64,000 nt of DNA from Nannobrachium achirus (Eukaryota; Chordata; Actinopteri; Myctophiformes; Myctophidae), in contig OY997649.1 in NCBI GenBank assembly GCA_963921795.1, positions 29,934,055-29,998,054 of the forward strand, given 5' to 3'. A program made the translations under genes and the position numbers. Each line of letters opens with the position of its first letter. Positions within the stretch are counted from its first letter, which is position 1. Positions 781 to 61,093 of this stretch are shown here, piece after piece. The notes under the pieces are model-generated. The model searched no databases, had not been told where the DNA came from, and saw only the letters and a list, made by a program, of their open reading frames with translations.

Positions 781-874
781 CTAGTGAAAATAGCCGATCT
801 ACAAGCTAGTCTGTTTCAAACATGTACAAATTTGAAACTTGGAGATACGAGGTTTCTGCCCGACAGTGACGATA
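781..874 (-). mobile_element. Partial copy of the 262-bp near-palindromic MITE (family A)
   Basis: The stretch starts with half of the central hairpin (CTAGTGAAAATAGCCGATC). It continues as the reverse complement of the left end of the full copy at 5286, ending TGCCCGACAGTGACGATA. The other half of the element is missing. Confidence 0.7.
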
Positions 875-1188
875 TCTAGCTGGTACAGTACTGTATGTAC
901 ATGAGGTAATTATTATACAGTACATGATATTTGACATTAGTTGCAAGTATCAGTGCATTGTACATGAGATTACGGTGCATTATCAGCGTCAGGTTCAAGC
1001 ACACAGTCCACAAAGGACAGTAACTTTCACAGGTACAGTCCACATAGTAGATCCACAAGGTCACACAGAGCGATAACTTTCACAGGTAAAAAGAACGTGA
1101 TTTTTGCCTTTGACACAGAGCTAATTAAAACGTACTCTAATTGTTATAGATAACTAACCCAAGCTAAAGCATGCTGTCCCTGTGTTAA

Positions 1189-1368
1189 AGGACCAGGTCA
1201 CCTCTGGGACAACCAGATCTTATTTTATTGTTGTGTGGGACACGATCAACACGATCCTGGGTTATTTTTTGTGTTCAATCTGTGTTTTTAGATATTTTAG
1301 TATTTCAGCCGATTTCAGCATGCTACAACTGGTCATATGATGCAAAATGCATCATATGCATTACTACA
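1189..1368 (+). mobile_element. Half copy of a TTAA-target palindromic MITE
   Basis: It follows TTAA at 1185-1188 and begins AGGACCAGGTCACCTCTG. It matches the left arm of the complete palindrome at 18186-18501 through the TCATATGATGCAAAATGCAT centre. The right arm is absent. Confidence 0.7.
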
Positions 1369-1685
1369 GGGGGATAGCCAAGTACAGAACGTGAAATTGG
1401 CAAGGGCTTAATTACAGTGGTGAAGGTAAATGGGAACCGGTAGAGTCTGAGGCAATGGCCTGTTGATTTGGTGGTGAATATACAGAAACACTGCTGAGTG
1501 CTGACCTTCGACTGAATCCCACTATTACTTGATTACAACATACAGTACTGCCCACTCTCTGTCTATGAGTACTGAACCAGTAAGTTGGCCTCCGTAGTTC
1601 ATGAATTTACTATCCCAAATGTTAGATTTAGTTTGCAGTTATGCATCAGTCAAAAGAAAGTGAAGCGGTGAATTTTTATTCTATG

Positions 1686-1785
1686 TGTTCTAGAGCTTTG
1701 AAATCTGTGTTCTAGATCTATACATTCTGTGTTCTAGATCTATACTTTCTATGTGCTTTAGTTCTATACTTTTATGAATTCTGAA
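1686..1785 (+). repeat. Short tandem repeat, unit TGTGTTCTAGATCTATA
   Basis: About three to four diverged copies of a 25-28 bp unit containing TGTTCTAGATCTATACTTT. Two further copies of the same unit lie at about 63700-63745 near the opposite end of the window. Confidence 0.6.
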
Positions 1786-2271
1786 TTCTGAATGATTTTG
1801 TCTGGAGGGCCATATTGTCATGTGAAGCTTGACCAATCCTCAATTCTGCATGCACGGGACATGTACGGGACAGACATTCTCACTCCTTGAGAATCTATGG
1901 GAATCCTCAAAAAAAACAGGTACGGGACAGACAAAGCCACTCCTTGGAAGCGGCTTTCACCGCTTCAAAAACATTGTGAGATATAAATTGCTGCAAATTG
2001 CTGACATTTTATCCCTTTGCTAAGCTCAGTATTTTCCTTCTTTTCTATAAATTCCAATTATCCCCTATTCCCATCATCTCCATCAAATTGTCAGCGCTCA
2101 GATGTGTGTCCTCCCCAAACTGACAGCATGATGTGTGCCCTCCCCAAAGTGACAGCAGGACAGACAGGCTTTTAAAATAGCTTGGAGATGATATATGGCC
2201 CGGAGCCCAGTCTCCAAATCCCACCACTTTTTGCAGCGCCCTGCGTGAAAAATATGCACGCGTAAACACGA

Positions 2272-2314
2272 CATGTTTTTTTTTGTGCATATATTATATG
2301 CACAAAAAAACATG
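2272..2314. repeat. 43-bp palindrome
   Basis: The arms CATG-T9-GTGCATAT and ATATGCAC-A7-CATG pair around a TATT centre. The only imperfection is two extra T residues in the left arm. No element boundaries are visible around it. Confidence 0.7.
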
Positions 2315-58485: not shown

Positions 58486-58642
58486 CTTTGGCTGTGATGG
58501 CGGGCTGTTCCCCGAGCAGCAACTTTATTCTCTTGGCGTGGATTTTGCCCTGGTAGTGTGACTGGGCCACGACGGCCGAGGTGAAGGACATGTTACACAG
58601 CGTGCAGCACTTGTTCTTGTCCACGTCGCCCTCCTCGCTGCC
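58486..58642 (-). CDS. zmat4: zmat4 internal exon encoding zinc finger 2
   Basis: This 157-bp exon encodes 52 full codons plus the first base of a split codon. It follows an acceptor reading gtcttgcag and ends at a donor reading G|gtagat. It encodes [11 protein letters not shown] and then a finger, CTLC-x12-H-x5-H, with the text [15 protein letters not shown] and the tail [10 protein letters not shown]. The spacing C-x2-C-x12-H-x5-H is that of U1-type/matrin fingers, which in the related protein JAZ/ZNF346 bind double-stranded RNA. The downstream linker (QPAITAK) is the part least like other vertebrates. The exon is more GC-rich than the intron around it. The GTG/ATG start of the open frame at 58663 is intronic and is not a translation start. 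Confidence 0.93.
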
Positions 58643-58748
58643 CTGCAAGACACCACGCCACACTTGTGGTTAATGCTTCTTCTTAGGATTCCATTTGCAG
58701 CATTCATTTCTGCTCTGCTGGACAATGCAGTGAAGAGAGACGGGGTGA

Positions 58749-59240
58749 CAGGGGCGTCACAAGGGGTAGGAGGAAAGTGGGACTGAGTTACTAGGGCCCA
58801 AGGTGGTGGAGGAGGGGCCTTAATTATTTTATACTTTAGCTATTGAAAAATAGCAGATATACAAGCTCACAGCGCGGCACCGAGTGCCGCGCTGCGAGCT
58901 TGTAGATCTGCTATTTTTGAAAAGTTGTGAAAATGTGTGAAAATCTTTGAATATTATGTATTTTTTAAGCGAACATTTCGAACTCAAATTTTGCTTCTGG
59001 GGGGTCCCTGGAACTAAATATTTTGAGATGGGGGTCCGTGGCCAAATACATATCATCTTGGGGGTCCTTGACATAGGTTTCTTGCACACATTTTCATGAT
59101 TTTTCAAAAATAGCAGATATACAAGCTCGCAGCGCGCGCTGTGAGCTTGTATATCTGCTATTTTTCAATAGTTAACATTCTTGGGGGGCCCGCAGTGAAT
59201 CCTTGTACCCAGGGCCCAGAATTTGGTGTGACGCCCCTAA
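58749..59240 (+). mobile_element. hAT-type nonautonomous element (CAGGGGCGTC family), best copy
   Basis: It starts CAGGGGCGTCACAAGGGG and ends GGTGTGACGCCCCTA. CGGGGTGA is duplicated at 58741-58748 and 59241-59248. Two hairpin cassettes (58845-58920 and 59103-59167) flank GGGGGTCCCTGGAACTAAAT and GGGGGTCCTTGACATAGG. It lies 107 bp upstream, in transcription, of the zmat4 finger-2 exon. Confidence 0.88.
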
Positions 59241-60257
59241 CGGGGTGACATGTGGTACTAGATTTGAACTAGCAGTTGGACTGATAACCGCCTGGGCCGT
59301 CAGGACACAGATTTTATTCCCAGCATTAGCACACTAACTTTACTTTGGTGGGTTGCCCAGGTATATCAAGGTCTGCCAAGGTATTTGAATAACCATTCAA
59401 GCATTTGTTTAACTGTCTGAGAAAACAACACCTCCTGCGATGATTTCTTTGGATACCTATTCACTGGTTGACAACCGCTCTTGCACGATGTGCCCCGTAT
59501 GTCATTGTCAGTTGTCAATATAGGGTGAACATCTTCTGGTGTTTGAAACTTTTGAAGACTGTGTTCATAATAGTCATGGGATGCAAACTACTGTAGGTCT
59601 GGTCTGTTTAGCAAAGTAATAAAAACCACAACCTGTACACTGTGATTAACTATGTTCTGCTTCTTTGTTGTCCCAGGCTAAATATCCTCTGTATGAATTG
59701 AAATGTATTGATAGTGTGTAGTATATTTGTGCAGGTGCGTTCATATGCACGTGTGTGTATAGTACCCTCCCACTCCCTGAAAAATAGGGCCTCGCTCCCC
59801 CGAAAGCCACACGTTGGATAAAGGCACATCCTGGCATCCTGGCAGCTTTAAGTTTCAACTAATGCAGTTGTTAAAAAATACTTTTCATGGTGTGAATGAG
59901 TACTGTACATGTTGAGCCAGTAAAATGGCCAAAATGTATGCATTTATTTTTAAATGCATTTACGTAATTGAAAGTACTAAATAACAGAAGAGAGGTAGTT
60001 GAAAGAGACACAGCCCAGTTTGCACCCGACTGTGACACTTTGTTAGCATGTAGATTGGTACATTTTTGGTGCAATACACCGGCACAGAATTTAGTACAAA
60101 TAAGGTGTTACAACTCAGAAGCCACAAAGGCAGCCATATTGGAATGCCCTTAGTCTATCGACATAAAAGGTTGGCTCACACAATTCTCAGATGATTCTGA
60201 AAGCACTCGAGTCTGAAACGGAACGCTGAAAATGCACAGATTGTAAAGCAGATGTCA

Positions 60258-60294
60258 CCCCCCCCCCCCCCCCCCACACACACACACACACACA
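60258..60294. repeat. Poly-C followed by (CA)n
   Basis: Eighteen C residues and then about nine CA units. Confidence 0.95.
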
Positions 60295-60574
60295 ACACCA
60301 CCCAATTTCCATTTGGCCTTTGCAGTCACGTAAAAAAGCCCTACTGTAAATCAAATTATTTGATTAAAAGATTATTGATCAGCAATGACAGTGGTTCACT
60401 GGTTATAACATTATCGATCCCGAGTTTATTATAGATCAATGTCGTGTACCTAGGAATATTGTTAAGTTATTATGGGACTCTATCTGCTGTATGTTGTAAA
60501 GTTTATTAGATCAGTGGTCTCTATCTGGCTGCTGTTGTTGTAAAGTTTATTCCAGGTCTGTGGTCTGTACTCTG

Positions 60575-61093
60575 TAGGGCATTCACCAAATATTCGAATA
60601 TCAAAGTAACTATTCGACGTTGTTCGAATATTCTTTTTTTTTTATATATATAGTTTATAAAATTTGGCTAGATAGGAAGTCATAAGAATAAGAGTTGTCA
60701 ATGCCCCAATAAGAGTTGTCAATGCCCCTGGTGGATGAATGTGTTAATGCTCTATACCAGGGGTTCTCAAACCTTTTTAGGCCCTGACCCCCAAAATAAA
60801 CATATTTGAACTGGGGACCCCCACCCTGACAAGCACTTGGAATTGTAGGTATTACATTTAATGTGACTCGGTTGCGCAGATAAATATTGTGAAAATAGCA
60901 GATCTACATGCTCACAACGCCTCGCGCTGCGAGGCGTTGTGAGCATGTACAGTAGATCGGCTATTTTCACAATGTTCGTCTCTTGCTTACTTAATATTTG
61001 ACAGTTTGGCCAGTCCTGTCGAATATTCGACTATTCGAATACTTTGAGGTCGAATAATTCGAATACTAAAAATCACTATTCGGGAATGCCCTA
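60575..61093 (+). mobile_element. Element with TAGGGCATTC ends and ATTCGAATA motifs, carrying a nested repeat
   Basis: The ends TAGGGCATTC and GAATGCCCTA are inverted. The subterminal ATTCGAATATC, ACTATTCG and CGAATATTC motifs occur in both halves. GTGGTCTGTAC is present just outside both ends but is offset at the left. Inside, from about 60758, lies a CAGGGGTTCTCAAACC repeat with GACCCCCAAAATA text and a hairpin cassette at 60887-60973. Confidence 0.7.
60887..60973. repeat. Hairpin cassette (CCTCGC subtype), well preserved
   Basis: The arms ATTGTGAAAATAGCAGATC through CATGCTCACAACGCC pair around CTCGC-GCT-GCGAG. The right arm has a small insertion (ACAG). Confidence 0.88.

Follow-up and report, generated by a model that had tools for sequence, protein, structure and literature searches.

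The DNA analysed here, hereafter the window, is a stretch of 64,000 nucleotides from the fish Nannobrachium achirus (Myctophidae; GenBank assembly GCA_963921795.1, contig OY997649.1, positions 29,934,055 to 29,998,054 of the forward strand). It contains many copies of a hairpin, i.e. a self-complementary block that runs from AATAGC to GCTATT. The hairpin is abundant throughout the genome and the same arm recurs in many host transposons. Elements with TTAA ends that carry it were found both free-standing and nested in another transposon (E1), and changes on one side of its stem are compensated on the other. The hairpin may best be explained as the palindromic core of one TTAA-target (piggyBac-like) lineage of miniature inverted-repeat transposable elements (MITEs), which would be nested in the various hosts and whose arms would be kept by template switching together with selection. 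The probability of this explanation was estimated at roughly 0.45.

The usual unit is 67 bp long and consists of two 32-nt arms and a 3-nt loop. Shorter units (59, 57, 55, 54, 49, 40 bp and so on) were also found and appear to have lost their centre. With up to three mismatches allowed, the window contains 29 matches to the arm ARYAGCMGATCTACAAGCWC; 100 dinucleotide shuffles gave 0.06 on average and always fewer than 29. Across the genome (1.66 Gb), the 18-base arm AATAGCMGATCTACAAGC was present 228,852 times with 0 mismatches (114,380 forward and 114,472 reverse), and its reversed-reading control gave 0 exact matches. Twenty 10-kb stretches picked by position (200 kb) were used as a sample of the genome. 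They contained 168 arms at up to three edits and 76 distinct hairpins according to a covariance model, with at least one hairpin in each of the 20 stretches. Extrapolation from this sample gives a rough genome total of about 630,000 hairpins. As to hairpin density, the window is typical of the genome. The pattern AATAGCMGATCTACAAGCTC had no match in viral_contigs.

The covariance model (R1) was derived from 30 hairpins, some in the window itself and the rest in sampled loci. The original prediction had described a palindromic block recurring in the window, with 13 good copies and seven half or decayed ones. Both the arm count against shuffles and model R1 bear out this recurrence. R1 matched 16 places, which are the 13 good copies (best E value at most 1.1e-12) and three of the seven decayed ones (16839, 41811 and 52789, weak matches with E 0.002-0.007), but the other four (781, 4401, 9242 and 11387) have a single arm only. 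Several copies that had been listed as separate items belong together: 9242 and 9411, 49219 and 49535, and 58845 and 59103 make up three pairs, each inside one element, and 22192 is a member of a pair of this kind. Copies 11387 and 12176 are parts of one split element with TATCGTC ends, and 16839 and 57697 belong to the same putative hAT-type family. The window therefore has fewer independent elements than copies.

Pairing of the stem was analysed on a nearly gap-free alignment of 30 hairpins (28 distinct). These were taken mostly from the 53 of 81 two-armed units that were non-duplicate and had arms at least 75% alike, and were then chosen by length; two rows (L012:2229-2295 and L015:246-312; L numbers denote loci outside the window) had earlier been dropped as duplicates of other rows. 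Pairing was found in 92.1% of cells, a value raised by the choice of rows. Counts of double changes are less open to this choice. Double changes were present in 17 of the 32 pairs and amounted to 66 cells, versus 20.6 (standard deviation 3.4) after shuffling and 6 to 16 when the partner was slid. Transversions, which have no route through a G-T pair, made up 8 of the 19 types of double change and half of the cells. Family consensuses, some of which rest on one copy, were compared in 28 combinations. Changes in both arms were at least as many as single-arm changes in 22 of these (one of them 0 and 0) and fewer in six; for instance, the counts were 7 and 2 for P against T, and 3 and 5 for F against H. 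The pairing extends beyond the unit. From base 6 to base 15 outward, the left and right flanks matched at 65 of 100 family-consensus positions, versus 36.4 after permutation (0 of 20,000 permutations reached 65), and matching fell to background from base 15 outward. These outer stems are family-specific: ATTGTG in K, ACTAGTG in T, TTTGCC in E2 and ATAGTGG in F. A count of both-arm changes in individual copies (50 same, 12 different, 25 expected) was not used, as it was confounded by shortened hairpins and subfamilies. Compensation is real in both the inner and the outer stem, and the earlier claims that the inner arms vary together and that the stem is kept while its sequence changes hold.

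The 15-base end sequence TTAACCACTTGAACC occurred five times exactly and 14 times at up to one mismatch in 264 kb, and 0 times in each of 20 tail-shuffled controls. At up to three mismatches, it occurred 48 times (5.35 expected), 22 of them with an arm near on the inner side. Seen from the hairpin, 18 of 195 arms had it on their outer side at a distance of up to 130 bp (2.1 expected), 13 of them at 36-58 bp. A TTAACC-type end is thus a recurrent, not a general, neighbour of the hairpin. Free-standing elements of ~190-210 bp, which run from TTAACCACTTGAACC to its inverse with a decayed hairpin inside, have TTAA at both ends (L025:6363-6570 and L023:3217-3404). E1 holds the same element between two TTAA-like ends, one of them decayed in the example at L025:7888-8085. 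The larger element P has TTAA at nearly both ends, with decay, and its ends TTTAACCCATTTAGRCC, related to TTAACCACTTGAACC, were found at several loci. Terminal inverted repeats resembling CCACTTGAACC and CCCATTTAGRCC are present at both ends of P and of the free TTAA elements. Beside the hairpin arm, C has TTAACCCACTTTA, and T/H carries TTAACGCCCTACTTGATC. A half copy in the window (4363..4432, +) has TTAACCACTTAATC followed by one arm at 4406. The T/H flank resembles the D flank beyond the hairpin (z = 6.5, with p at the minimum that 150 shuffles allow). In several families, what is shared is a block larger than the hairpin that extends as far as a TTAACC-type end.

Host families were defined by clustering the flanks of 220 arms, which came from the window, from the 20 stretches of the sample and from another eight loci retrieved because they contain an arm. 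At a threshold of 1e-4, 173 arms fell into 21 clusters of at least two and 47 stayed unclustered; both flanks lay outside any cluster in six of the 81 two-armed units formed. The hosts in the window are T, P, B, C, D and K, and the sampled loci add E1 (CAGGGGTCTTCAACAGG), E2 (TAGGGATGGGACGATAT), F (TAGGGCTGTCACAATTAT) and G (CAGGGACGTGCAG). Flank clusters and ends thus agree with the original prediction that several hosts with different termini share the hairpin; the number of hosts had been understated, and the hAT copies with CAGGGGCGTC ends carry a nested P with a hairpin near each of its ends. Superfamily names rest on ends and target duplications, not on transposase genes. The target duplication of hAT elements is 8 bp long, and F, E2, E1 and B agree with it: exact duplications of 8 or 9 bp flanked four of six end pairs of F, two of five of E2, three of six of E1 and two of eight B end pairs containing P, and the other pairs had none. 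By the same end-pair test, no exact target duplication was found in 10 copies of T, no complete end pair was available for C and D, and no duplication was found for G proper (L025:8820-9065 and L009). The duplication CTCTACAG was present in one of six K-type end pairs and the hairpin in none of them.

The window contains five T elements, which are MITEs with TATCGTC ends. The one at 5286..5547 (+; hairpin 5397-5463) is supported by located ends, flank BLAST and a covariance match. In the element at 15784..16038 (+; hairpin 15890-15954) the left arm is damaged, and in that at 51374..51606 (+; hairpin 51459-51525) the left arm is of the G..A type and an A/C mismatch is kept. The element at 11328..12261 (-) is split inside its hairpin by an insert of ~774 bp between two copies of ATCTACAA (11404 and 12178), with remnants at 11396 and 12171-12236; this insert, with ATCTACAA on each side inside one arm, is an insertion into a palindrome. 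The last one (771..875, -) is deleted and keeps one arm at 789-806. At three loci outside the window (L015:8562-9086, L024:6542-6962 and L026:1731-2311), T is nested in another hAT-type element, whose ends are CAGGGACGTGCTGG and which is bordered by the duplications CAGTGATG and GGTTAGAG or, in the case of L015, an 11-bp repeat. This is nesting in two layers. The right part of the CAGGGACGTGCTGG-ended elements at L015 and L026 has another inverted repeat around AGAGAGATCTCTCTC.

P stands alone at 49138..49670 (+), from TTAACCC to TTTAA, and is piggyBac-like by its ends; its hairpins (49223-49288 and 49542-49607) lie in a 122-nt inverted repeat. The three copies of the hAT-type B, all with CAGGGGCGTC ends and a nested P, are at 58749..59239 (+; duplication ACGGGGTGA; hairpins 58849-58915 and 59109-59162), 9173..9615 (+; half hairpin with its arm at 9247-9266, hairpin 9415-9481, P end GTCTAAATGGGTTAAA at 9517-9532) and 21859..22346 (-; hairpin 22198-22264, second hairpin lost). 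B was rejected as an independent host because its hairpins come with the nested P. The putatively hAT-type C (CAGTGGTGT) is present at 16587..16990 (-), with a damaged hairpin at 16845-16909 and a TTAACCCACTTTATCCC block adjoining, and at 57606..58052 (+), with a hairpin at 57729-57793 whose left arm is partly repeated. Host D (CAGGGGTGGGCAAC type) occupies 52692..52936 (+; hairpin remnant 52772-52839), and a D-related cassette lies at 43632..43771 (-; hairpin 43705-43771). Host K, from TCTCAAACC to GACCCCC, is at 60760..60976 (+). Its hairpin (60894-60965) shows a paired ACATGC/GCATGT change and has a second copy at L006:2563-2629. A decayed hairpin at 41805..41864 (+) gave covariance E values of 0.003 and 0.006.

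When both ends of a host were located by BLAST probes, at least one arm was present in 55 of 56 pairs. As two of these pairs share an end with another pair, they correspond to 54 elements, 53 with an arm; without the five elements in loci fetched for an arm, the figure is 48 of 49. The exception is a copy of E2 without arms (L022:2602-2842), whose left flank ends at the arm. This near-constant presence of arms fits a single entry of the cassette into each host, followed by amplification of the host.

The proposed lineage would be a large and diversified group of short, nonautonomous TTAA-target transposons with a hairpin core. Its members would include P, the larger element, which has a hairpin close to either end, and the free-standing ~200-bp elements bounded by TTAACCACTTGAACC. 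Such elements would have inserted into other nonautonomous transposons (E1, E2, F, C, D, G, K and T, and B through P), and each host would then have amplified the nested cassette together with itself. Complementarity would be kept mainly by arm-to-arm repair of source copies, i.e. template switching, and selection would also preserve the palindrome, which may be bound near the ends by the TTAA transposase. We infer the piggyBac identity, the nested insertion in every host, the template switching and the transposase binding from these patterns. P and the free elements may instead belong to another TTAA superfamily, e.g. Kolobok.

Several observations weigh against this explanation. TTAACCACTTGAACC is near only the 18 of 195 arms mentioned above, and no arm is close to 26 of its 48 sites at up to three mismatches. 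By eye, both TTAA ends were seen only in the free-standing elements, P and E1; there is one TTAAC-type end in C and T/H, a decayed one in E2 and none clear in D, F, G and K. Eight of 171 flank comparisons gave the lowest possible p, where about one was expected, so flank homology is clear for some families, and most family pairs are without detectable homology. Among one-sided host matches, 15 of 49 had no arm within 350 bp. A C copy (L014:8950-10000) has a TTAACC-like block without a hairpin, and the six K-type end pairs are without arms. For E1, the one host checked, the sample contained no clean empty site, which would consist of flanks joined at a single TTAA, e.g. TTTTTTATATTAAATATCTGAAAACACAAATTG. 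Finally, six families (C, D, E2, F, K and older T) retain an A/C mismatch at position 7 of the arm in many two-armed copies, and P keeps mismatches at arm positions 11 and 21.

These persisting mismatches argue against frequent correction between arms, and the sharing of the one at position 7 supports a single origin of the hairpin. The arms of T speak for arm-to-arm copying. The left arm was G..A in nine copies, G..C in two (one with an adjoining deletion), C..C in four and C..A in none, the right arm was C..C in 12 of 12, and the left-arm changes make the left arm equal to the right. Copying between arms thus probably occurs in short patches and rarely, and selection for the palindrome may act too. 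The original prediction had offered selection or arm-to-arm correction as reasons for the upkeep of the stem. This proposal is strengthened, and either of the two may be at work.

The hairpin could also have been captured by recombination rather than by TTAA transposition. After excision of a MITE or a stalled fork, interrupted gap repair would have copied the very common hairpin from another element by template switching, and cassettes would have moved between families in this way. In favour of this route, several hosts have at most one TTAA end. A copy of C and a copy of F do not differ in their arms, and the two consensus arms agree as well (that of C being from one copy); in the C-F flank comparisons, only C_C with F_C scored high (z = 3.0). 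A chimaera at L027:7240-7800 joins a P flank and an E1-type flank across one hairpin, possibly through recombination in the hairpin. E1 holds a complete TTAA-to-TTAA element, which stands against capture by gap repair, and we consider this route less likely than nested insertion.

A transferable palindrome was also considered, and is held to be improbable. In ten or so families, whose ends call for different transposases, self-complementarity and not sequence would be what is conserved, and the block would be copied into the centre of unrelated MITEs and retained there. A central block prone to form a cruciform could aid the joining of the ends by any transposase, or the recopying of the element, and would then be an amplification aid moving between superfamilies.

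The original prediction had offered a parasitic module as one option, with the hairpin as a minimal mobile element of its own that enters other transposons. The sharing across hosts stands, and a near-identical core with differing immediate flanks agrees with it. As an independent module, it is less supported, given the larger shared block, the TTAACC ends and the flanks common to T/H and D. One of the 81 units had the same direct 8-mer within 40 bp of each hairpin edge, and permuted partners gave 2.5 on average, so there was no excess of such duplications. The outer stems are paired and specific to each family, and therefore describe a block without a fixed edge. The hairpin as its own element is thus judged quite improbable.

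Conservation of the stem for a functional hairpin RNA (a small-RNA precursor or similar) would account for the compensatory changes and is very unlikely. G-T and A-C mismatches are about equally frequent (29 and 27), in a rough test because orientation was set by arm type; there is no strand preference, and nothing therefore points to an RNA made from one strand. No match at the Rfam gathering score was found in the window. Least probable of all is a descent of all hosts from one transposon with swapped termini: the cassette is shared, and T/H and D also share flanks, but termini and target sites differ (8-bp or 9-bp duplications in F, E2, E1 and B versus TTAA in P) and K-type end pairs without a hairpin exist. 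An origin of all copies from one ancestral transposon, which had been named as an outcome contrary to the original prediction, is thus partly found, as one TTAA lineage seems to be the source of the cassette but the hosts do not seem to derive from one another.

The closest published precedent found is the group of CMITEs of Acropora corals, which are TTAA-flanked, piggyBac-like MITEs with an internal region of ~75 bp more conserved between families than the terminal inverted repeats (PMC2872659). In the parts of that account consulted, CMITE matches numbered 88 and 111 in two shotgun data sets, and one new coral element arose by insertion of a CMITE (PMC2872659). The printed 60-base CMITE consensus has no similarity to the hairpin (0.61 and 0.56 of shuffles reach the alignment score). 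The word 'hairpin' is absent from the main text of the CMITE account, which, in those parts, mentions neither paired changes nor hAT-type hosts (PMC2872659). The present hairpin exceeds what those parts describe in its spread to several hAT-type hosts, its paired outer stems and its copy number.

In the piggyBac and piggyBat transposases, according to the sections consulted, paired C-terminal domains (CRDs) bind palindromes near the transposon ends (PMC11707139). These palindromes are 19 bp in piggyBac and about 14 in piggyBat, versus 67 bp plus an outer stem here (PMC11707139). Unlike them, the present hairpin is often single and near the middle, and also lies within hAT-type hosts. In P, each terminal repeat is followed inwards by a hairpin, a layout that resembles the piggyBac end palindromes at a larger scale, and by this analogy the hairpin arms are putative binding sites of a transposase. 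Template switching can maintain hairpins by restoring the pairing in one step from the other arm; in the portion of that work consulted it is reported for RNA genes, whereas transposon families are concerned here (PMC8794818).

Angel and other fold-back MITEs of fish are short and can fold into hairpins; they are likened to the present element by description, not by sequence. Among the matches listed in the open-access PubMed Central literature, there was no account of this element, which may be catalogued in repeat libraries under several names.

Other repeats were recorded in the window. A 163-nt inverted repeat without spacer (18181-18506, 93% complementary), related to 1185-1309, looks like another fold-back element. 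Long inverted repeats are present at 13587-13881 (141 nt, 85%) and 30087-30473 (117 nt, 91%), and a tandem repeat with an 85-bp unit, whose copies are 95-96% alike, at 10468-10770. Two pairs of direct repeats (35151-35381 and 40182-40412, 231 nt; 39977-40183 and 40664-40870, 207 nt) are 100% identical and are a recent duplication or an assembly artefact. Outside the window, near-alike hairpin copies and flanks follow one another along the start of the largest contig (L001-L004 and L005-L007; C1, 25-84 kb). This suggests that the start of this contig is a recently amplified block, with some of the loci L001-L007 overlapping or situated near one another.

Copies of the hairpin could easily be assigned to many unrelated families. 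Taken together, these related palindromes, which number hundreds of thousands, have two arms that can be told apart and occur in about ten backgrounds, form a very large natural data set. It bears on whether paired changes in DNA stems come by selection or by copying between arms, a question usually studied with few cases. As read here, it also shows how a single MITE lineage can be carried along by other transposons and grow to a sizeable share of a genome.

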